Assembly (NCBI GenBank): GCA_003645255.1
Contig: QNES01000002.1
Span: forward strand, 1 to 64,000
From: Gammaproteobacteria bacterium
Lineage (GTDB): Bacteria > Pseudomonadota > Gammaproteobacteria > Beggiatoales > Beggiatoaceae
Direction of reading: 5' to 3'
Length of the DNA stretch: 64,000 nucleotides
Part shown: one piece after another, positions 3,465-62,073 of the stretch
Layout of the letters: every line of letters begins with the position of its first letter
Numbering within the stretch: position 1 is the stretch's first letter
Program-made: the position numbers and the translations under genes
The notes under the pieces: generated by a model
The model's input: the letters and a program-made list of their open reading frames with translations, nothing else
Told to the model about the DNA's origin: nothing
The model's database searches: none

Positions 3465-3491
3465 AACTTCAGCGAGCGTGGGTAAAAATGT

Positions 3492-3514
3492 AGGGGCGAA
3501 CCTGCGTGTTCGCC
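3492..3514. repeat. GGGCGAAC...GTTCGCCC hairpin repeat
   Basis: A short inverted repeat (GGGCGAAC, CTGCGT, GTTCGCCC) preceded by TGTAGG. It belongs to an interspersed family with other copies near 27601, 36064, 40763, 47962, 53490 and inside nrdB at 42057. It lies between two genes on the minus strand. Confidence 0.75.
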
Positions 3515-3531
3515 CTGAGGAAGCCGGTGAG

Positions 3532-4806: not shown

Positions 4807-5421
4807 TTACTTTGGACTGGCTAAGTAATTGACAACAGCAGAAATGTCTTCATCATCCAGCTTTTTAAGCTTTTTCAGCATTTTCCTGGAATGTGACTTC
4901 CGATCTTTGCTGACGAACTGCTTAATCTGAGTTTCAAGATAGGGCATAAATTGTCCGGATAAGATACTTGCATCATCTTCTGGATTAGCACCCTCATCAG
5001 TGTGGCACTTTTTGCACTTTCTGAAAATCCTTTTGCCCTTTTTAACAAGAGCAGCATCAACTTCTTGTATACGAGGAACGAATGTTTGGGCTGCGAAATA
5101 GTCGCCCAATGCTTTCAGATCATCTGCACTGAGAGCCTTGGCGATGGCGTTCATATCAGTCTCATCTTCTCCCTCAGTTTTGAACTTTTCGCCTGTTCGC
5201 TCGCCATCAGTGTAATCTTCCATGGTTTGAATGAAGTAGGGGGCGGAAAAGCCTGCAATACTAGGCACCTTTTTTTCACTATTGCCATTTTCGCCATGGC
5301 AGCTTTCACACTTATCTTTAGCCAATGCAGCCCCATCAGCAGCCATGACCGTTGTTGCTGTTCCGCTCATTAAGAAAGAAGCCCCCATGAGCAAACTCAG
5401 GGCAGTTTTTCTAGTCATCAT
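4807..5421 (-). CDS. dihaem cytochrome c (cytochrome c4-like)
   Basis: A periplasmic c-type cytochrome of about 204 residues with two haem-attachment sites, CESCH and CKKCH, each followed by a Met-containing segment. This is the duplicated layout of cytochrome c4-type electron carriers to terminal oxidases. I place the start at 5421 (MMTRKTALSLLMGAS) because a signal peptide begins there (cleavage near VMAADG) and an AGGAAA Shine-Dalgarno lies upstream. The open frame extends 231 bp further, but that part is read through repeat DNA and gives a repetitive peptide (LKFGFLCR twice), so I reject it. It is probably part of sulfide or nitrogen respiration; no oxidase gene is adjacent. Confidence 0.85.
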   Translation of the reverse strand: MMTRKTALSLLMGASFLMSGTATTVMAADGAALAKDKCESCHGENGNSEKKVPSIAGFSAPYFIQTMEDYTDGERTGEKFKTEGEDETDMNAIAKALSADDLKALGDYFAAQTFVPRIQEVDAALVKKGKRIFRKCKKCHTDEGANPEDDASILSGQFMPYLETQIKQFVSKDRKSHSRKMLKKLKKLDDEDISAVVNYLASPK

Positions 5422-5474
5422 AATGAATGTTTTCCTTTTACACTTAAAAATAATTTTAGAAACCTCAAATAAAG

Positions 5475-5618
5475 GTATACTACTAACGGGTAATTTTTGG
5501 ACTTTTTTTTTTAACTGTTGGTGGGCAAAAAAAGACTTGCCCACCCTACATAAAAATCTACATAAAAATCCAAATTTCAGCCTACATAAAAATCCAAATT
5601 TCAGCCGTTTAAAGTATA
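5475..5618. repeat. MITE-like palindromic element, copy 1
   Basis: The ends are imperfect inverted repeats (GTATACT...AACGG left; CCGTTTAAAGTATA right). Inside are GGTAATTTTTGGACTTT, a hairpin GTGGGCAA...TTGCCCAC, CCTACATAAAA, and a tandemly repeated unit with CTACATAAAAATCC. A close relative lies at 40793-40949. No transposase is encoded. Confidence 0.7.
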
Positions 5619-5742
5619 TGCTCATATTACCAAATAATAAAAAGCTTGTCAAGTAATTGAAAACCGGTTGGGTGTTTCCTACTATAGATGTCCAGATAAG
5701 ACAAATTTTTTCTGGCTATATCAAATTTAAATTCAAAAAAAA

Positions 5743-7417: not shown

Positions 7418-9352
7418 TCATAAGGATAATAATTGTGAGTCAATATGAATATCATCTACAAAATACATTTTCATATCCCCTTTACCTTTCACCGGAATTG
7501 AACCTCTTTCAATCACATTAAATTTATTTTTCACAATCTGATAAGTTGTTTCTGAAACATTAATTTTCATAGGTTCAGAATGGCTTTCCATTCTGGCAGT
7601 TGTATTAATGGTATCCCCAAACACATCATAAATATACTTTTTCACCCCCACAACACCCCCAACCACTTTGCCAGTATGAATGCCTATTCTAATTTTCCAT
7701 GAAAAAGGGGAAACTTGATTACGTCTTTTTAAAAAAGCAATAATTTCAATAGCAGATTGAACAATATTTTCGGCGTGATGTGGATTTTCATCTGGCATAC
7801 CGCAAACACAAAAGTAAGCATCACCAATCGTTTTAATACGTTCACACTGATTTTTTTCGATGATATTATCAAAAACCGTAAAAATATTGTTTAATTCAGC
7901 AATCAAAACTTTAGGTTCCAATTGAGAGGCTAAGTTAGTAAAGCCCACAATATCTGAAAAGTAGACTGTCACATTCTCAAAAGATTCCGGCTCGCTTTTA
8001 CCTTTTTCTTTTAAATCATTAGCTACCCTCACCGGTAAAATATTTAACAATAATTTGTCAGACTTAGCTTTTTCTAATTCAAGTCTCGCATTGGCTTTCT
8101 TTTTCAAGCCATAAAGCAAATACATAATAAATGCAAATACAAAAACAAAGAAAAAACCACCAAACAATGAAAGAGTGAACAATTTCTGTCTCTCTAATTC
8201 TAATTGTTGGATTTCATTCTCTTTTTTTAATTTTTCCGTTTCATATTTGGTTTGCATATCAGCAATCGCTTCCTGACTTTCTTTTTTATAAATGTGATCC
8301 TTTACCTTAGAAGATTGCTTATAGTATTTAAGTGCTTTTTGATAATCACCTTTTGCGGCATATAAATCAGAAGAAAATTCATAATTTTCCAAAATTAATC
8401 CTTGAGAATCAATTAGTTGAGCGATTTCTAACCCTTTTCTAAGATATAAAAAGGCTTGCTCATAAAATTGCATCGCCTGGTAAACTTTACCAATATTATT
8501 GGAAACATTAGCTATTTCATATTGATCTCCCGTTTCATTCCAAGTTTTCAAAGCTTTAAAGTAATATTCTAAAGCTTTATTATTATCACCTAGTTCTTGA
8601 TAAACAGCCCCCACATTATTGAAATTTTTAGCCATTCCTTTTTTATCGCCCAGTGCTTCGCGGATATTCGATGATTTTAGATAATATTCTAATGCTTTTT
8701 TATAATCGTTGGTGAAATAATAAATAATACCAATATTATTAAAAGAATCTGCAATACCTTCTTGATCGCCAATTTTTTGCCGTATTTTCAGGGCATTAAA
8801 ATGATTTTTGAGAGCCAAATCATAATGGGTTAAAAAATCATAAACAATGCCAATATTATGTAAAGCATTAGCAACACCTTTTTGATCGTTAATACTTTCA
8901 GAAACCCTGAGTGATTTCAAACAAGCGTTTAAGGCTTTATCATAATTGCTCAATCGCCAATGAACAATACCAATATAGAGTAAAGAAGAAGCGATGGCTT
9001 TTTGATTAACTTGGATTTTTTCAAATATTTCTAATGATGTTTGAAAATATTCTAAAGCCTTATCATATTTAGCAGAATGTTGATAAGCAATACCAATATT
9101 ATTTAAAGCCCTCGCTTTTTCAAACTCATTATTGCTTTGTTCGGCTAATTCTAAAGCTTGTTCGCCATATTCGATACTTTTTGTTGGCGATGAATCCCAA
9201 TAGTGTTGAGTTAATGCCATTAATACTTCCATTTTTTTTTCACCAGAAGCCGTTTGTAATCGTATTTCCAAAGAGGCAATTGGCTCATCTGCTCCTAATA
9301 AAAAACCAGGTAAAAACCAAATTAAAATAAATAAATATTTTAGGATTTTCAT
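7418..9352 (-). CDS. TPR-containing class III adenylate cyclase
   Basis: A 644-residue membrane signalling protein. Signal peptide 1-20, about eight TPR repeats (40-350, recurring YDKALEYFxxSLxI), a coiled coil, one membrane helix at 391-415, then a class III cyclase domain. The metal-binding aspartates are Asp467 (YFSDIVGF) and Asp511 (TIGDAY). Lys507 (RIKTIGD) and Asp576 (YDVFGD) are the residues that select adenine, so cAMP is the expected product. The TPRs face the periplasm and the cyclase the cytoplasm, so an external protein cue may control cAMP. TPR-cyclase proteins of this type are abundant in Beggiatoa-like bacteria. It stands alone. Confidence 0.9.
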   Translation of the reverse strand: MKILKYLFILIWFLPGFLLGADEPIASLEIRLQTASGEKKMEVLMALTQHYWDSSPTKSIEYGEQALELAEQSNNEFEKARALNNIGIAYQHSAKYDKALEYFQTSLEIFEKIQVNQKAIASSLLYIGIVHWRLSNYDKALNACLKSLRVSESINDQKGVANALHNIGIVYDFLTHYDLALKNHFNALKIRQKIGDQEGIADSFNNIGIIYYFTNDYKKALEYYLKSSNIREALGDKKGMAKNFNNVGAVYQELGDNNKALEYYFKALKTWNETGDQYEIANVSNNIGKVYQAMQFYEQAFLYLRKGLEIAQLIDSQGLILENYEFSSDLYAAKGDYQKALKYYKQSSKVKDHIYKKESQEAIADMQTKYETEKLKKENEIQQLELERQKLFTLSLFGGFFFVFVFAFIMYLLYGLKKKANARLELEKAKSDKLLLNILPVRVANDLKEKGKSEPESFENVTVYFSDIVGFTNLASQLEPKVLIAELNNIFTVFDNIIEKNQCERIKTIGDAYFCVCGMPDENPHHAENIVQSAIEIIAFLKRRNQVSPFSWKIRIGIHTGKVVGGVVGVKKYIYDVFGDTINTTARMESHSEPMKINVSETTYQIVKNKFNVIERGSIPVKGKGDMKMYFVDDIHIDSQLLSL

Positions 9353-21685: not shown

Positions 21686-21718
21686 AAACCTCAGAGGTTT
21701 TCAAAACCTCTGAGGTTT
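21686..21718. repeat. GAGGTTTT hairpin (second family)
   Basis: A perfect inverted repeat: arms AAACCTCAGAGGTTTT and AAAACCTCTGAGGTTT around one C. It lies between two plus-strand genes and may terminate the upstream one. Related copies at 27511, 34444, 49642, 53655 and 60473. Confidence 0.75.
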
Positions 21719-21754
21719 GATTATTGATAGGAAAAACTTATGTAGGAGAAACAG

Positions 21755-25503: not shown

Positions 25504-25607
25504 TTTCATACCAGAACGATTTCCTTTAAAATAGCCACAACTATACTACACACCAATGCCATTATACTGCCCACGGGCATAACTTAAACTTTTAGGTAGA
25601 TTATTTC

Positions 25608-25638
25608 GCTGGGCAAATAAACACTTGCCCACCCTACC
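25608..25638. repeat. GTGGGCAAGT-type repeat copy
   Basis: A hairpin GCTGGGCAA...TTGCCCACC plus CTACC, a member of the interspersed GGGC-family that also occurs inside the MITE-like elements at 5475 and 40793. It is located after the channel gene. Confidence 0.65.
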
Positions 25639-27543: not shown

Positions 27544-27600
27544 TTATCGGTTTTAGGTATGTTATATTATAGATGTTCATAAAAATAATTGAACCTATCG

Positions 27601-27628
27601 CAGGGCGATAACGAATGTTCGCCCTACA
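27601..27628. repeat. GGGCGA...TTCGCCC repeat
   Basis: CAGGGCGATAACGAATGTTC followed by GCCCTACAT, a diverged copy of the GGGCGAAC repeat family, just before the AlbA-type gene. Confidence 0.6.
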
Positions 27629-32600: not shown

Positions 32601-32953
32601 GGCAGCAGTTCAAAGTAATTGTTATTTAGATCTTTGATCAGATAATCACCCGCACCGATTTTCATGGCATTAACTGCCACCCGTTCATTACCTTCCCCTG
32701 TGACCATAATGCCAGGAATTTCATAGGGTCCTTCAACTAGATGCTGCAATACTTGTAAGCCATTCATGCTTGGCAAATTGTAATCAATGACAGCAATATC
32801 GTAAGTATTTTTTTTCAGTTTGGCTAAACCTTCTTTACCATCCATTGCTAAATCAATAACATAGCCATGTTGAGATAATTGTATTTGAACACGAGTTGCA
32901 GTAATGATATCGTCTTCTATATAAAGGACTCGGATGGGTTCAACATTGGACAT
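29606..32953 (-). CDS. receiver-GAF-multi-PAS diguanylate cyclase
   Basis: About 1115 residues. An N-terminal receiver domain (phospho-acceptor Asp57 in AVIDYNLPSM) is followed by a GAF-like domain (about 150-320) and five PAS/PAC segments, the PACs marked by DITEYKQVEK, NISQRKLAE, DITERKKAEEAL, VTEQKRTEENL and DITQRKQAEK. The C-terminal GGDEF domain is intact (RFGGDEFTIIL), so cyclic di-GMP synthesis is expected. No EAL domain follows. I take ATG at 32953; the frame opens at a TTG at 32965. Tandem TAACTGA repeats lie immediately upstream. It probably integrates phosphorelay and redox or small-molecule cues. Confidence 0.92.
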   Translation of the reverse strand: MSNVEPIRVLYIEDDIITATRVQIQLSQHGYVIDLAMDGKEGLAKLKKNTYDIAVIDYNLPSMNGLQVLQHLVEGPYEIPGIMVTGEGNERVAVNAMKIGAGDYLIKDLNNNYFELLPEVIECELEKQRLIKDRLRTKNALHERNRILEAVNFAAEEFLTGTHWTQPIQDVLARLGQAVAVSRVYIFENHSHEKNPLLTSQRYEWVANGITSQIDNPERQNFPYHPHLKRVAEKLAENQPFYGLVKDFPPGETEIFEAQNILSIAIVPVFVGKEWWGFIGYDDCVEEREWPAIVIDAFKTASNILGAAIQHDQMDQALRESEARLAETQRIAHLGHCEWDMTSNTRFLSEETCQILGLSSEQHQVSNEFFINVIHPEDRQIIQKAVEQTIDSNAPYDIEFRIIRPDEKVRYIHALSKLFRDTTGKPKSFLGTIQDITEYKQVEKALRDSTEMLGAILNAATDSIVMTELDTTCVIINPAAAARLGHPVDELVGLRLCELVAPEIATRRKGFVNQVICTKQPTLFEDDESQGIWFEHSVYPMLDEADSVYRIAIVSRNISQRKLAEENLRKERDFIDAIINSAGSLVVVLDRLGHIVRFNKTCEKLTGYTFEEVKNHFVWDFFLIPEELEPVKNYFQNLVLNHPPLRHENYWLTKDKQRRLIDWSNTILLDDNQVIEYVIGTGIDITERKKAEEALARTLVDLKVILDNSPVGIAFLAEGQRLLRFNHKLEEIFGYTEKELQNSTTEMLYFSSEDYEKIGQKLYPLLKQGATYKTEQIMRRKDGSPFWCRLLVKAINPNELSKGFIWNCEDVTEQKRTEENLRLAATVFETITEGIIVTGANYQIIMVNPAFTTITGYHFEEVVGKKPHLLKSENQDAKFYETMWTSLNQIGKWQGELWNQRKNGKIYAESKSIVAIRDSNHQIVQYVTVFSDITQRKQAEKLIWHQANYDSLTELPNRTLFADRLAQAMITVKRQPGQLAVMFIDLDRFKWVNDNLGHKAGDLLLKEVAQRLTVCIRESDTVARFGGDEFTIILSKIEEVLDIKVIAMRILETLSQPFMLEEKQEVSIGGSIGIAVYPEDGQEAETLLRKADIAMYQAKERGRNTFCFFEQFEGT

Positions 32954-32961
32954 AGCTTTTA

Positions 32962-32982
32962 TCAATTATCAGTTATCAGTTA
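32962..32982. repeat. TAACTGA heptamer array
   Basis: On the minus strand, two TAACTGA units and a TAATTGA lie just before the ATG of the GGDEF gene. No Shine-Dalgarno sequence is visible there. Confidence 0.75.
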
Positions 32983-33147
32983 TTAGCTAACAATTAGTCA
33001 CTTTGATAAATGGTTATTGTTTTTTGATAAAATCAGTAAACAGGGAAAGGGATAAAAACGGATTTTTGACGAGATGTGTCATAAAACGGTTATGGGAAAA
33101 TGAAGGATGCCAAAAAAAGAAAGGAAAAAAACGATAAAGATAAATGA

Positions 33148-33302: not shown

Positions 33303-34322
33303 TCATTTCCCTGGATTAGATGCTGGTAAACCCCGTGTTAGCAAATAAAATAATAGCCGTAAACTGCTATCACTACGGGTAGTCAAATTGCTAATCAGTA
33401 TCGTCGCCTTCACTGTGCGTCTGGAAATTTTAACCTGTTGCCCCTGGCAAAAATCACGCTGTCGGTAAATACGTCGTAAAGTCAACACCGCCATCCCCAA
33501 AGCCCATAAACAAAAGCGACGAATACCCGTCTCAGCTGGCGGAATCAATAAAATATAATGTAAAGCATTATGCAAATGAGTATGTGCAATTCCTATCAAT
33601 TCTGTTAAGCCATCACCAAAATTTGGGTTGTCATGCCCTGGCGATAAATTTTTCAAGTCAAAACCCACCTGTGCAAACACATCTCTTGGTAGCCAACAAG
33701 CTCCACGTTGATAGTCTTCCCAAATATCTTTTAAGATATTAGTCATTTGTAAAGCTTGCCCAAATGAAACAGCTAGTTTTTGTAATTGCGCCTCATTTTG
33801 AGCAATAGAAGGCGAATAATGACAAAATAAATCCGTGAGCATTTCACCCACCACGCCGGCGACATAATAACAATAACGATTCATTTCAGATAAATCGGTT
33901 AAACCTTCCAGACTGCTATTTTGTTGAAAATCAGCCATCCCCTTTGCCATAATACGTATACAACGATATAAGGCAGCACGTTGTGTGACGGTGAAACTAT
34001 GAGTTAAGCGAATCACACAGGGCATATTCATAATTAAATCTTTTTCAGCCGCACTGGTGCTATCAGAAAGCAAAGGAAATAAAGTTTTCGCCAATGCCTT
34101 TGGGCAAGACTCACCGGCGACAACTTGAATAAATTCTTGAGAAAATTGTCTTTTTTGAATAGGCGTTAATTTGGGTTCATCTTCTATGGTATCTGCAATA
34201 CGGCATAATAGATAACCGTTACTAACGACTTGATACAAGCCGGCTGGTAACTGTGGGATAGTCAAAGCAAAGGTACGAGATACCCCAGGTAAAATATAAG
34301 TTTGGTAAGCTTCATCAGTCAT
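33303..34322 (-). CDS. squalene/phytoene synthase family protein
   Basis: A 339-residue trans-isoprenyl-diphosphate synthase. Both Asp-rich motifs are seen: DTIED (44-48) and NILKDIWED (195-203). Other signatures are SRTFALTIP at the N-terminus and RGACWLPRD. It joins two farnesyl or geranylgeranyl diphosphates head to head. The RTFAL...L..GL start favours the squalene synthase branch, perhaps for hopanoids. No other isoprenoid gene is adjacent. TAACTGA-like repeats sit next to the start codon. Confidence 0.88.
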   Translation of the reverse strand: MTDEAYQTYILPGVSRTFALTIPQLPAGLYQVVSNGYLLCRIADTIEDEPKLTPIQKRQFSQEFIQVVAGESCPKALAKTLFPLLSDSTSAAEKDLIMNMPCVIRLTHSFTVTQRAALYRCIRIMAKGMADFQQNSSLEGLTDLSEMNRYCYYVAGVVGEMLTDLFCHYSPSIAQNEAQLQKLAVSFGQALQMTNILKDIWEDYQRGACWLPRDVFAQVGFDLKNLSPGHDNPNFGDGLTELIGIAHTHLHNALHYILLIPPAETGIRRFCLWALGMAVLTLRRIYRQRDFCQGQQVKISRRTVKATILISNLTTRSDSSLRLLFYLLTRGLPASNPGK

Positions 34323-34325
34323 TTA

Positions 34326-34357
34326 GTTATAAGTTATCAGTTATAAATTATCAGGAT
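34326..34357. repeat. TAACTGA-like array
   Basis: On the minus strand ATAATTTATAACTGATAACT and TATAACTAAATG: the array of TAACTGA/TATAACT units ends at the start codon of the synthase gene. Confidence 0.65.
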
Positions 34358-40792: not shown

Positions 40793-40949
40793 TATACTGC
40801 TAATGGGTAATTTTTGGACTTTATTTTTAACTGTTGGTGGGCAAAAAAAACTTGCCCACCCTACATAAAAGCCAAAATTTCAGTTGGTGGGCAAAAAAAA
40901 ACTTGCCCACCCTACATAACATGCCATATTTAAGCCGTTTAAAGTATAC
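40793..40949. repeat. MITE-like palindromic element, copy 2
   Basis: A close relative of 5475-5618: left end TATACTGCTAATGGGTAA, right end CCGTTTAAAGTATA. It contains two tandem hairpins GTGGGCAA...TTGCCCACCCTAC (starting at 40835 and 40883) instead of one. Confidence 0.72.
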
Positions 40950-40963
40950 TTAAAATTTTAAAA

Positions 40964-42190
40964 TTAATCCCAATTTAATTGACTACCCGTTTGATATTCA
41001 CGCACCCGCCCTTCAAAAAAATTCACTTCCTGATTAAGCTCGTATTCGCTAATCCAAGGCATCGGATGTGTCTTAATCCCAAATATTGGCTCGACACCTA
41101 GGTTCTTGCAGATGTTGTCGCCTATAAATTTTGCAAAGTCAATGTAGGTGTTGATTGGCATTCCCAAAATTCCCCCATCTGGCATCACTACTTGGGCATG
41201 AAGGGTTTCTAATCTAACCGCTTCATTTACTATGGCTTGTACACGTTTTTGCATAGTGGTATCCCAACACTTGGGATTTTCTTTGATAATTTGCCGAATT
41301 AGCCAGGCACCATTCGCTGAATGCTGGGCTTCGTCGCGCCAGATATAGCTGTATTGTTGCGCTGTATTCCTTAACTTGCCCTTTCTTGCCAGCGCAAAAA
41401 TTTGCGAAAAGCCCAAGGGAAAGAATAAATATTCAAAAATATAATAACTGATCAGGTCTTCCAATAAGGGGCGGATGGCTTCCGGTGAACCAACAGGCGC
41501 GTCTGATTTAACGAGATGATTGCTAAATGTTAGATTCCAATTAACTTTTTCAACCAGTGCAGGCATTTCTTGATACAGGGTAAAAATTTGCCCTTGTCCT
41601 TTTTCATCCAAACCAAAAGATTCTAAGATAAATAGGTAAGATTCGATATGATTTGCTTCTTCAGACATGACCCAACGTAGGTATTGCCTCATTTCGTTGG
41701 CGGTAATGTGTTGAAATATGGCATTCACCAGGTTGTCAGGCACCAGGTTATCACCGGCGGTGAGATAAGAAATATTGGTTTTGAAGAGCCACATTTCTGC
41801 TTCGGTTAATTTCCCTGTTTGCCATTGCAGTTTATCTTCTCCCATTGGAATATCGTTGGGGGTCCAGAAATTTTTACGGGCTGCCAAAAATCGTTCCCTT
41901 ACCTCGTTATATTTGACCGGTATCGGTTGCCGCAAGTCATAGTTACGTCCTCCAATAATTTTGATGTCAGAAGCTTCGGGGCGTTTACTTCCAATGGTGA
42001 TGGGATCTAAACTGCTTGAAACGGGAAATATCACTTTTTTAGGGTGAACAGATTTAGGGCGAACACACGGGTTCACCCCTACATTTTTTACTTTTTGGTG
42101 AGTGGGTTTCGATTTTCTATGTGGCACTTCAGTGCTGTAGAAATGATCACTGGAAGGACTGGAAATACTGGTTTCGCTAAAATCTAACAT
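40964..42190 (-). CDS. nrdB: class Ia ribonucleotide reductase beta subunit with repeat-derived N-terminus
   Basis: A 408-residue NrdB. Ligands of the di-iron site and the radical tyrosine are in order: Asp147 (AGDNLV), Glu178-x2-His181 with Tyr185 (EEANHIESY), Glu in YYIFEYLFF, and Glu/His in RDEAQHS. The presence of Tyr makes this a tyrosyl-radical enzyme rather than the Phe (class Ic) type. The first 60 residues are an extra, low-complexity tail; residues 37-50 are read from an inserted intergenic repeat. It lies directly downstream of nrdA. Confidence 0.93.
   Translation of the reverse strand: MLDFSETSISSPSSDHFYSTEVPHRKSKPTHQKVKNVGVNPCVRPKSVHPKKVIFPVSSSLDPITIGSKRPEASDIKIIGGRNYDLRQPIPVKYNEVRERFLAARKNFWTPNDIPMGEDKLQWQTGKLTEAEMWLFKTNISYLTAGDNLVPDNLVNAIFQHITANEMRQYLRWVMSEEANHIESYLFILESFGLDEKGQGQIFTLYQEMPALVEKVNWNLTFSNHLVKSDAPVGSPEAIRPLLEDLISYYIFEYLFFPLGFSQIFALARKGKLRNTAQQYSYIWRDEAQHSANGAWLIRQIIKENPKCWDTTMQKRVQAIVNEAVRLETLHAQVVMPDGGILGMPINTYIDFAKFIGDNICKNLGVEPIFGIKTHPMPWISEYELNQEVNFFEGRVREYQTGSQLNWD
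42042..42078. repeat. GGGCGAACAC repeat inside nrdB
   Basis: The motif GGGTGAACA, then GGGCGAACACACGGGTTC and ACCC, is a copy of the GGGCGAAC repeat family, open in the nrdB frame and encoding about residues 37-50 of the protein. Confidence 0.8.
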
Positions 42191-42210: not shown

Positions 42211-42242
42211 AGAAATCCGATTTTTTAAAAAATCGGATTTCT
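42211..42242. repeat. hairpin repeat (CCG core) between nrdA and nrdB
   Basis: A perfect 32-base palindrome with arms AGAAATCCGATTTTTT and its complement and no loop. It sits inside the nrdAB operon. Confidence 0.85.
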
Positions 42243-42268: not shown

Positions 42269-45076
42269 CTATTGACAAACCTCACATGTTTCTTCATCAT
42301 CCAATGTACAAACCGGTGCTGGTGTGGCTTTAATCACCGTGCTTTTTTCAACATGGCTGGCTCCCATACTACGCAGATAGTAAGTGGTTTTAAGCCCGCG
42401 CAGCCATGCAAGTTTATACAAGTTATCTAATTGGCGCCCTGAGGGTTCTAGCATATATAAATTAAGCGATTGTGCTTGATCTATCCATTTTTGCCGCCGT
42501 GATGCGGCTTCTATTAACCATGAAGAGTCAATTTCAAAAGCGGTGGCATATAGCTTTTTCAATTCTTCTGGAATGCGTTCAATGAGACGAATACGCCCAT
42601 CACAATATTTCATGTCATTGATCATCACATCATCCCAAAGGTTGAGTGTCTTCAAGTCTTGCACGAGATAGGGGTTGATAATCGTAAATTCACCGGATAA
42701 ATTCGATTTTATGTAGAGGTTTTGATAAGTAGGCTCAATGGATTGCGTGACACCGCAAATATTTGAAATCGTTGCTGTGGGGGCAATTGCCATGGTATTA
42801 GAATTACGCATTCCTACCGCTTGAATACGTTCGCGCAAACTATCCCAATCCAGGGTAGAAGTCGTGGACATTTCTAAATAGTGTTCACGCGCTTCTGCCA
42901 ACTTTTTAATACTATCTATTGGCAAAATGCCCTGGTGCCAGAGTGAGCCTTCAAAACTAGAGTAAGAACCTCGTTCTTCTGCTAAGTCAGTTGAAGCAGA
43001 AATGGCGTAGTAACTGATCAGTTCTTGTGCCTGGTCAGCAAATTCGACGGCTTCTTCACTTGCATAAGGAATGCGTAATTTATATAAGGCATCTTGGAAA
43101 CCCATAATACCTAGCCCAACGGGGCGGTGACGCAAATTAGCCGCCTGGGCTTGAGGCACGGCGTAGTAGTTAATGTCGATGACATTATCTAATGCCCGCA
43201 TAGCGGTGCGAATAGTCGTTTTTAATTTTTCTGTGTCTAGTTTGCCACCTTTAATGTGAGCAGGTAAATTGATTGAACCTAAATTGCATACCCCAATTTC
43301 TTCGCCGGCTTGAGTATTTATTGTGATTTCAGTACAGAGATTTGAACTATATATTACCCCTACATGCTGTTGTGGACTCCGCAGATTGCAACTATCTTTA
43401 AATGTTAACCAGGGGTGCCCTGTTTCAAATAACATGGTTAACATTTTGCGCCAGAGTTCTACCGCAGAAACAGGCTTCCAGATTTTCATTTGCCCTTGTT
43501 CAGCTGCCTGCTCGTATTTTTCATAAGCCAATTTAAACGGTTCACCGTATAAATCATGTAAATCAGGCACCTCATTGGGGGAAAATAGGGTCCATTGCTT
43601 ATTTTCGTGTACCCTTTTCATGAATAGATCGGGTATCCAATTGGCGGTATTCATGTCGTGAGTGCGACGGCGTTCATCACCTGTATTTTTGCGAAGCTCT
43701 AAAAATTCTTCGATGTCGATATGCCATGTTTCTAAATAGGCGCAACCGGAACCGCGCCGGCGCCCTCCCTGGTTAACAGCAACCAGGGTGTCATTAGCCA
43801 CTTTTAAAAATGGCACCACACCTTGGGATTGACCGTTAGTGCTTTTAATATGTGAACCCATGCCCCGTACAGGTGTCCAGTCATTACCCAAACCCCCGGC
43901 AAATTTAGATAACATGGCATTATCTTTAATCGCGTTGTAAATGCCTTCTAAATCGTCGGGAACGGTTGTCAGATAACAGCTAGATAATTGTGGACGCAAG
44001 GTGCCTGAGTTGAACAGCGTTGGGGTGCTGCTCATAAAATCAAATTGGGATAATAAGTGATAAAATTCAATGGCACGGGCATTAGGTTCATCTTCATTGA
44101 GCGCGAGTCCCATTGATATGCGCATAAAAAAGGCTTGTGGCAATTCAAACCTGGTATTTTCCCAATGTAGAAAATAACGGTCATATAGGGTTTGCAATCC
44201 TAAATAAGTGAATTGCAAATCTCTTTCGGAAATAAGGGCTTTGCCTAATCTATCTAAATCAAATTTGGCTAAATGAGGAGCTAATAATTCGTGTTCAATA
44301 CCGGAATGGATATAAGCTTTAAAATAGCTGGGATAATAACGTTCCATATCCGTAGCACTTGCAAAAGTGGGCTGAAATTTGACAAAATTGAGGGCATCTG
44401 AGCGTAATTGATCGAGTAATAGGCGAGCTGCTACATAAGTATAATTTGGCTCTTTTTCAATCAGCGTGCGTGTACTCATTACCAATACGTGATTAACATC
44501 CCGCTTAGAAATGCCATCAAATAGATTTTTTAAGCTTTCTTCAATAATCCGGTTTGGGGTGACATCAAATAAGTTGATACAGGCTTCACTAACTCGTATC
44601 CGTAAGCGATCTTCATTCAAAGGGCAATGCCGCCCGGCATCATCAATGACATTGATAATGGTTTGTTCGGGTTTTTCAGCCCGTTTATGTGCATGTTCTT
44701 CCCGGTAAATGATGTAAGTTCGTGCGACTTTATGGAAGCCGGCTCGCATTAAAGCTAATTCCACTTGATCTTGTATATCTTCAATATGCACCGTACCTTC
44801 TTCACGCAAACGCCTGGATATACCTTTAATAATTTGTTTAGCTAGTTCACTGACGGCATTTTGTATGCGATTTGAGGTAGTTGCTGTATCACCTTCAACC
44901 GCTAAAAAGGCTTGTGTCATGGCATTAATAATTTTGCCTGTATCAAAACAGGTTAATTGACCATTACGCCGGATGACGTGATATTGCTCTAATCCGGTGA
45001 AATCGCCATTTTGAATGGCATTATCTAGTAAATTAACGACTTCGTAGGAATCGGAGTCCGTTATTTGTTCAGACAT
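42269..45076 (-). CDS. nrdA: ribonucleotide reductase alpha subunit with tandem ATP-cones
   Basis: A 935-residue NrdA. An N-terminal ATP-cone (about 30-130, IRRNGQLTCFDTGKIINAM) is followed by a second cone-like segment (about 140-220). The catalytic barrel keeps NLCTEITI, GVCNLGSINLPAH and the TYYLRSMGAS loop. The C-terminal redox pair is CEVC (CTLDDEETCEVCQ). It reduces ribonucleotides with NrdB; the cones sense ATP/dATP. Its start codon abuts a TAACTGA array. Confidence 0.95.
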   Translation of the reverse strand: MSEQITDSDSYEVVNLLDNAIQNGDFTGLEQYHVIRRNGQLTCFDTGKIINAMTQAFLAVEGDTATTSNRIQNAVSELAKQIIKGISRRLREEGTVHIEDIQDQVELALMRAGFHKVARTYIIYREEHAHKRAEKPEQTIINVIDDAGRHCPLNEDRLRIRVSEACINLFDVTPNRIIEESLKNLFDGISKRDVNHVLVMSTRTLIEKEPNYTYVAARLLLDQLRSDALNFVKFQPTFASATDMERYYPSYFKAYIHSGIEHELLAPHLAKFDLDRLGKALISERDLQFTYLGLQTLYDRYFLHWENTRFELPQAFFMRISMGLALNEDEPNARAIEFYHLLSQFDFMSSTPTLFNSGTLRPQLSSCYLTTVPDDLEGIYNAIKDNAMLSKFAGGLGNDWTPVRGMGSHIKSTNGQSQGVVPFLKVANDTLVAVNQGGRRRGSGCAYLETWHIDIEEFLELRKNTGDERRRTHDMNTANWIPDLFMKRVHENKQWTLFSPNEVPDLHDLYGEPFKLAYEKYEQAAEQGQMKIWKPVSAVELWRKMLTMLFETGHPWLTFKDSCNLRSPQQHVGVIYSSNLCTEITINTQAGEEIGVCNLGSINLPAHIKGGKLDTEKLKTTIRTAMRALDNVIDINYYAVPQAQAANLRHRPVGLGIMGFQDALYKLRIPYASEEAVEFADQAQELISYYAISASTDLAEERGSYSSFEGSLWHQGILPIDSIKKLAEAREHYLEMSTTSTLDWDSLRERIQAVGMRNSNTMAIAPTATISNICGVTQSIEPTYQNLYIKSNLSGEFTIINPYLVQDLKTLNLWDDVMINDMKYCDGRIRLIERIPEELKKLYATAFEIDSSWLIEAASRRQKWIDQAQSLNLYMLEPSGRQLDNLYKLAWLRGLKTTYYLRSMGASHVEKSTVIKATPAPVCTLDDEETCEVCQ

Positions 45077-45106
45077 TATCAGTTATCAGTTATCAGTTGT
45101 CAGTTA
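45077..45106. repeat. TAACTGA heptamer array before nrdA
   Basis: On the minus strand a TAACTGA, a CAACTGA, then TAACTGA twice and TAATG, so the last unit runs into the start codon. No Shine-Dalgarno is visible. Confidence 0.8.
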
Positions 45107-45336
45107 GTGGGGGGCAATTCTTTGTGGTTGCTTTATCAGTTATCAGTTTTGATTCCTAAGTTCATCTTATTAGATAATACCGTATAAACGGCTAAAAAGT
45201 TAATTAAATTTATAAGTGATTGATTTTTAAGTATAAAATAGCTAATTGCTTGTTAATGTTAGGATTTTTTTTTGTTAAAGCCTATAAATAATGTGGATTT
45301 TTTTAAATCAAAAATGAAGAGTGGGATAGGTTCATG

Positions 45337-45408
45337 CAAATACGACTTTTTGAAAAAACGTATTTGTTTAATGGTAAGAAATCCGATTTTTTTAAAAATC
45401 GGATTTCT
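45337..45408. repeat. two hairpin repeats
   Basis: One variant with arms CAAATACG/CGTATTTG (45337-45366) and one with the CCG core (45377-45408). They lie just downstream of accD (minus strand). Confidence 0.8.
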
Positions 45409-47961: not shown

Positions 47962-47988
47962 GTAGGGCAGACCTGTGTGTCTGCCCTT
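47962..47988. repeat. GGGCAGAC...GTCTGCCC repeat
   Basis: GTAGGGCAGACC, TGTGT, GTCTGCCCTT. A close copy lies at 53490. Confidence 0.75.
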
Positions 47989-49632: not shown

Positions 49633-49936
49633 GTAAACTTTAAACCTGACAAGTTTTTAAAACCTGTCAGGTTTATCGTTTCACCAAAAAACGCTCAAGA
49701 AACGCAAGTGACAAAAAAATCCAATTTGTTTCCGCATTAAATAATAGCTCTCAGCTTATCCTTCCCTGCTTATCCTTCCCTTCTGCCTAAATTTTCATCC
49801 CAAAAAATTCCCACTCACATCAAAAAAATTCCAAAATCATACCAGCTTGGCATGTAATCTGCTTTCCTAAATCATGCACATCATCAAATCAATTTATAAC
49901 GATTAAATCATTCAAATAAGAAAATAACCACTGACA
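49633..49936. other. gene-free stretch with hairpin
   Basis: About 300 bases without a gene. It holds a second-family hairpin (49642-49674, arms AAACCTGACAAGTTTT / AAAACCTGTCAGGTTT), a likely terminator for the regulator, and a direct repeat CTTATCCTTCCCT twice near 49756. The rest shows nothing. Confidence 0.55.
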
Positions 49937-53378: not shown

Positions 53379-53740
53379 ATATAAACCAGGATAGAATAAC
53401 TAAAGCGAGCGTAAAGTTAATGCCATTAAATTAAGCCTGGGCGAACACGCAGGTTAGCACCGAAATCCCCTGAATATGTGGAGATTGGTAGGGGCAGACC
53501 TGTGTGTCTGCCCTTAACGCAAATGGCAGTGGACTGATCCGTCCATCGCTAGCGTAGGGCTTTTTGCAGGAGTTTCCTTCTGGACACTAACTAAGGAAAA
53601 TGGATATTCTCTCCAACATTTTTGAAGGGGCTAAGTATCTATAGGTGTTCAGGTAAATACCTGTCAGGTATCCAAGACCTGACAGGTTTATAATGTGAAA
53701 CTTTGTTCCGAAGTCAATTATTTTTCTGAAATAGTATATT
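53379..53740. other. gene-free repeat cluster
   Basis: No gene. It contains GGGCGAACACGCAGG (53439), a full GGGGCAGACC...GTCTGCCC repeat (53492-53516), GGACTGATCCGTCC (53532-53545), and a second-family hairpin at 53655-53690 next to TATAGGTGTTCAGG (53640). Confidence 0.6.
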
Positions 53741-60435: not shown

Positions 60436-60536
60436 GGAATCAGGATTTAATAAATCCAAAACTTGAACTGTCAAACCTGACAGGTTTTCAAAACCTGTCA
60501 GGTTTAGTTTTTGAGGTTTTATTAAATCCGCATTCC
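60436..60536. repeat. nested palindromic element with hairpin core
   Basis: Outer inverted repeats GGAATCAGGATTTAATAAA / TTTATTAAATCCGCATTCC flank a perfect second-family hairpin at 60473-60505. It abuts the next element at 60537. Confidence 0.75.
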
Positions 60537-62041: not shown

Positions 62042-62073
62042 AGAAATCCGATTTTTGAAAAAATCGGATTTCT
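62042..62073. repeat. hairpin repeat (CCG core)
   Basis: A full copy between two minus-strand genes. Confidence 0.85.

Follow-up and report, generated by a model that had tools for sequence, protein, structure and literature searches.

An in-frame GTAG-tagged REP insert in the NrdB linker of a Beggiatoaceae bacterium

The nrdB gene of one Beggiatoaceae MAG carries a 45-nt in-frame insert, which is very probably a tolerated REP-type element lodged in a disordered linker and gained after the lineage split from the relatives sampled. It was found in a window of 64,000 nt (contig QNES01000002.1, positions 1 to 64,000, the whole stretch of DNA analyzed here), and this MAG is the only one from which the insert is known. 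According to the explanation that we favor, a GTAG-tagged REP of a type abundant in this Beggiatoaceae genus would have inserted into an A-rich 5' coding stretch of nrdB, presumably after the split. The REP and a 15-nt repeat of its 3' arm, together 45 nt, would have added 15 residues to NrdB. The insertion would have survived because this site is a disordered linker of variable length, which joins the MLDFD start motif to the R2 catalytic core; selection would have purged the majority of those that landed elsewhere in genes.

NrdB and its insert

The gene (40964..42190, minus strand) encodes the small (R2) subunit of ribonucleotide reductase, a protein of 408 aa identified from its ORF and from profile and fold matches. 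Profile searches matched residues 91 to 375 to PF00268 (E = 4.6e-61) and the protein to NCBIfam NF005550 (ribonucleotide reductase beta; E = 1.3e-90; 304.2 bits, slightly below the 309-bit cutoff). The top Foldseek matches were R2 proteins, the nearest PDB fold being 6y2n (TMt of 0.95). Residues D147, E178, H181, E253, E287, and H290, which we take to be the six metal-ligand positions of R2 proteins, are invariant in an alignment of 31 NrdB sequences. The AlphaFold prediction is confident for the R2 core, and residues 1 to 73 have a pLDDT below 50 and lack secondary structure. The proteins of most relatives begin with MLDFD or a close variant, and the linker between this motif and the SSSLDPITIG core has a high content of S, T, K, and R and differs greatly in length across the alignment, being nearly absent in some sequences and reaching about 85 aa in others. 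The first-pass annotation had regarded some 60 additional N-terminal residues as unusual, which did not hold, since most relatives have an MLDFD-initiated extension of 20 to 85 residues and the excess here is only about 15 residues.

The insert corresponds to residues 36 to 50 (NVGVNPCVRPKSVHP; 42041..42085, minus strand), as delimited by alignment and by codon comparison with two relatives, L064 and L068. Its codons are AAT GTA GGG GTG AAC CCG TGT GTT CGC CCT AAA TCT GTT CAC CCT. Pattern matching placed in it a GTAG-tagged REP (42057..42082, minus strand), made of GTAG, GGGTGAAC, CCGTGT, and GTTCGCCC and followed by a T, that is, a GTAG tag and two arms of an 8-bp stem separated by a 6-nt loop. 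Next to it lies a tandem repeat of the 3' arm (AAATCTGTTCACCCT; 42041..42055, minus strand) with a period of 15 nt, whose second copy is slightly altered. Residues 37 to 50 are thus encoded by a repeat copy, as first proposed, through GTAGGGGTGAACCCGTGTGTTCGCCCT plus AAATCTGTTCACCCT. The predicted RNA fold of a 71-nt stretch containing the REP has an energy of -15.6 kcal/mol (z = -3.1). Since 45 nt is a multiple of three and the insert is open in the frame used, NrdB would have gained 15 residues. That the repeat keeps the frame open is true but unremarkable, because the consensus REP is open in five of six frames. Compared with the nearest common REP type, 2 of the 26 positions differ, both flanking T's are kept, and both differences change the amino acid (L to P and A to V). 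These two differences suggest that the insertion is not very recent and that intermediate steps have been lost.

The insert is missing from the approximately 29 related NrdBs in the 31-sequence alignment, including those of both congeners, the rows compared including Candidatus Parabeggiatoa spp., Candidatus Thiomargarita nelsonii, Thioploca, and Halobeggiatoa MAGs. In L064 and L068, KPTHSK or KSTHSK is followed by SRRKMIFPV or STKKVVFPV, with nothing in between. At the codon level, L068 (Parabeggiatoa sp. nov. 3) reads ACT CAC AGC AAA TCC ACG AAA AAA GTG at the site, and the window gene reads ACT CAC CAA AAA GTA AAA [45 nt] AAA AAA GTG. In a tree built from the NrdB core, the window sequence falls beside its congeners L069 and L070 (support of 93/80), nested among insert-free sequences. 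The comparison of N-termini suggested at the outset therefore found the segment absent from all the relatives compared, and a single gain on the window's own branch would be the simplest history. The ancestral state at the site rests on L064 and L068, since the linkers of the congeners are too short to align there. A search of IMG/VR for the insert junction gave no match.

The insert is almost certainly translated, as had been proposed, to judge from the start codon and the residues around the insert. The ATG (42188..42190, minus strand) is the first codon of the MLDF(D) motif with which most relatives begin, a well-spaced GGAG Shine-Dalgarno sequence lies 7 nt upstream (ACGGAGACAATTATG), and the KPTH.K directly preceding the insert recurs in L064, with similar residues in L068 and L071. 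Were the real start downstream, for example at the GTG of residue 53 just past the insert (yielding MIFPVSSSLDPITIG), the REP would be an untranslated hairpin in the 5' leader. The short NrdBs of L077, L078, and L079, which start near the core and indicate that the family can do without the extension, would fit this reading, as would the caution that many REPs at N-termini lie in leaders annotated by mistake as coding (PMC3733652). However, the GTG has no Shine-Dalgarno sequence (GTTCACCCTAAAAAAGTG), the frame of nrdB is open through the 50 codons, and the conserved start, the ribosome site, and the conserved residues flanking the insert all disfavor a downstream start, which makes the leader explanation very unlikely. 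Nothing suggests that the nrdB of the window skips its N-terminal extension. It is also extremely improbable that the insert is an artefact of assembly or binning in which REP-containing reads were misjoined inside nrdB. Repeats do cause chimeras, and a contig of a Desulfobacteraceae MAG (L087) breaks inside the hairpin of nrdB, but on either side of the insert the sequence is that of nrdB, all of it on a single contig and in the same frame, and a misjoin would seldom happen to have a length divisible by three and conserved residues at both ends. Moreover, L087 independently holds the passage from nrdB codons into the REP, which confirms the left junction of the insert only.

Positions 1 to 84 of L087 (NBLJ01000048, Desulfobacteraceae bacterium 4572_123) are identical to the N-terminus of the window nrdB and are followed by unrelated DNA. 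We considered this contig as a second insert-bearing nrdB and rejected it, since it switches DNA inside the REP hairpin and is probably a chimeric contig end.

The REP family in the window and the genome

The stem sequence GGGCGAAC occurs six times in the window, against 0.96 copies expected, and none of 100 shuffles reached six. The first-pass count of at least six intergenic sites was partly right: the six matches are there, but they fall in five places, one of which is nrdB itself. Full matches to the strict REP pattern (GTAGGGGNNNACNNNNNNGTNNNCCC) were found in the window only at 3490, 42057-42082, and 53488; at 53439 and 61950 there are only half-sites. Two of the full matches are intergenic REPs of the same family as that of nrdB, one with the GGGCGAAC stem (3490..3515, plus strand) and one with the GGGCAGAC stem (53488..53513, plus strand). 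Two close variants lie outside ORFs of at least 100 aa, namely an intergenic REP variant GTAGGGCAGAC...GTCTGCCCT (47962..47986, plus strand) and a diverged REP-like palindrome GTAGGGCGAACATTCGTTATCGCCCTGC (27600..27627, minus strand).

In the 4.4-Mb genome, the strict pattern gave 118 matches, 59 on each strand, and the same pattern read backwards as a control gave none. We inspected 103 of these copies with their flanks, mostly about 1.2 to 1.5 kb on each side. The main stems were GGGCGAAC (46 copies), GGGCAGAC (40), and GGGCAAAC (11); the stem was perfect in 87 of the 103 copies, and 69 matched a common type exactly. A T preceded GTAG in 77 and followed the stem in 89. An inverted partner was present within 120 nt for 29 of the 103 copies in this genome and for 16 of 26 in the congeners. 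The two congeners have 124 and 95 strict copies, versus 0 to 31 in other members of the family, many of which have none. In congeners G001 and G002, many REPs form REPIN-like inverted pairs about 20 to 25 nt apart, often combining one GGGCGAAC and one GGGCAGAC stem (e.g., G001:C5:1499-1573 and G002:C83:2414-2488). A literature search for the literal REP sequence returned unrelated primers only.

Only 1 of the 103 inspected copies, that of nrdB, lies within a family-confirmed ORF whose protein is conserved on both sides, and 61 further REPs from six relatives yielded no other case of this kind, showing that genes are strongly avoided by these elements. Other apparently intragenic REPs were discarded: those of L033, L054, L122, L135, L186, and L200 are leader read-through, those of L089, L096, L111, L112, L123, and L137 lie in short ORFs matching no family, and those of L042, L053, L098, L128, and L156 lie in short ORFs judged by length only. 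Also discarded was L133, where the REP (G000:C126:2029-2054), which has repeated 3' arms, is followed by what is left of a short frame weakly resembling arsenite methyltransferase (arsM).

The window holds several other repeats. A different palindrome, AGAAATCCGATTTTTTAAAAAATCGGATTTCT, has at least 12 copies (e.g., 42211-42242, 45377-45408, and 62042-62073), one of which lies immediately before the ribosome site of nrdB, in the gap between this gene and nrdA. A second GTAG-tagged repeat, GTAGGGTGGGCAAG...TTGCCCACC, occurs at 5517-5549, 25605-25637, 40833-40864, and 40883-40915, mostly outside clear genes, with one copy within a 281-aa ORF (4807-5652). Palindromes of the AAACCTGACAGGTTTTCAAAACCTGTCAGGTTT type are found at 21686-21727, 49642-49683, and 60473-60514, and 8478-9129 holds a repeat array whose period is about 120 nt. 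Short repeats of the TTATCAGTTATCAG type lie upstream of nrdA and elsewhere (45061-45105, 45118-45162, 32944-32988, and 34312-34356); they recall the TAACTGA repeats reported for Beggiatoa.

Mobilization and fate of the insert

GTAG REPs are thought to be mobilized by RAYTs (PMC3733652, PMC3116915), and a RAYT (Y1/HUH) transposase may have mobilized the element found in nrdB. At L061, a Y1_Tnp gene lies between uvrA-like and mutL-like frames, and a REP is found about 40 to 60 nt past its stop; the similarity of its product to the RAYT family is weak (NF047646, 63.7 bits, below the 80-bit cutoff). At L063, a protein scores above the NF047646 cutoff, with REP-like copies about 280 to 350 nt downstream. 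RAYT homologs in the two congeners had no REP at close range, and across genomes the presence of RAYTs showed no clear correlation with the number of REPs, so that we regard mobilization by RAYT as no more than plausible. The hope that this copy would be a natural test of how the element moves was disappointed: the A-rich target makes a target-site duplication unreadable, and the RAYT link is circumstantial.

The REP could also have arrived without a RAYT, through hairpin-primed repair, template switching, or A-tract slippage, leaving the 15-nt arm repeat as a footprint. This possibility, which concerns the insertion mechanism only and is compatible with the tolerated insertion that we favor, is worth considering but on balance doubtful. 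The weak RAYT linkage speaks for it, as do the 3'-arm repeats that follow 4 of the 103 REPs, namely those of nrdB, L036, L126, and L133; because of the last three, the arm repeat of nrdB may be a recurrent by-product. So does the 5' arm of the nrdB copy, GGGTGAAC, which pairs perfectly with the distal arm GTTCACCC, a T in the former matching an A of the latter, as would be expected of arm-templated correction. Yet the inserted unit has the standard GTAG tag and the T-flanked ends typical of the family, and RAYT-family genes are present in the genome. A separate question is whether the repeat has been exapted as protein sequence, as the first-pass annotation claimed. A dispersed repeat does lie in the reading frame of NrdB, but exaptation found no support, as the insert sits in a linker predicted to be disordered and hypervariable, is private to one genome, and bears no sign of function or selection. 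A present regulatory role of the hairpin or of the 15 added residues, acting on nrdB or on the interaction with NrdA, is highly improbable. In its favor are the lack of any other intragenic copy among the 103 REPs, the predicted stability of the RNA hairpin, and the many REPs noted in genes of DNA synthesis and repair (PMC3733652). Against it stand the nature of the linker and the two positions at which the copy departs from the nearest common REP, both of them changing an amino acid, and conservation cannot be shown for an insert private to one genome. We give equally little credence to the broader idea that the REP was selected in nrdB, its RNA hairpin or added residues tuning the expression or assembly of NrdB, and that REPs in this genus can enter genes with the guidance of a RAYT, a route of which the 3'-arm repeat and the A-tract target would here preserve the trace. 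The tolerated insertion that we favor would instead be neutral.

Comparison with known systems

The element has the features of GTAG REPs, i.e., a palindrome of 20 to 40 bp with an unpaired GTAG end, high copy number, mainly extragenic location, and inverted pairs or clusters (BIME, REPIN). It shares with the GTAG REPs, REPINs, and RAYTs described previously (PMC3733652; Bertels and Rainey 2011, PMC3116915) the GTAG at one end, the 8-bp stem, and the 6-nt loop, as well as about 100 overwhelmingly extragenic copies, some in inverted pairs, and RAYT-family genes in the genome. Occasional intragenic copies, including some in DNA-synthesis genes, are also a common trait. GTAG REPs have been described from several phyla, and several species have copies within genes, many of which are genes of DNA synthesis and repair (Di Nocera et al. 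2013, PMC3733652). In contrast, the RAYT linkage is weak here, Beggiatoa is absent from the main text of the 2013 study, and the nrdB copy is not a dimer but a lone REP whose 3' arm has been duplicated. The present data document a GTAG REP family with many copies in one Beggiatoaceae genus and few in most other members of the bacterial family.

Rickettsia palindromic elements (e.g., RPE-4 and RPE-6 of R. conorii; PMC3733652), the earlier-known example of such insertions, are likewise short palindromes lying in frame in functional protein genes, and the nrdB insertion, in frame in a gene with conserved flanking protein sequence, works like them. The R. conorii repeats are CGTC-tagged and found in many genes, whereas the REP of nrdB, unrelated in sequence, is found in one gene and carries a GTAG tag, so it is not an RPE. 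Repeats in genes are also known from the same bacterial family, in the MITEs of Candidatus Thiomargarita nelsonii (hupL and the dsrA intron; PMC4853749), but these are longer (about 205 nt for the hupL MITE, with 19-bp inverted repeats) and interrupt the gene instead of lengthening its frame.

The in-frame insertion of a REP is therefore an already known kind of event, to which nrdB contributes a gene and a bacterial family that are both new. Linkers have been proposed to tolerate REPs, and N-terminal cases may be mis-annotated (PMC3733652); intragenic REPs at this end of a protein generally meet with doubt, as the start codon could have been annotated wrongly. In nrdB, this doubt is largely removed, and the start fixed by a motif, the conserved residues on both sides, and the insert-free relatives make it a clean example of an essential enzyme lengthened by a mobile palindrome.
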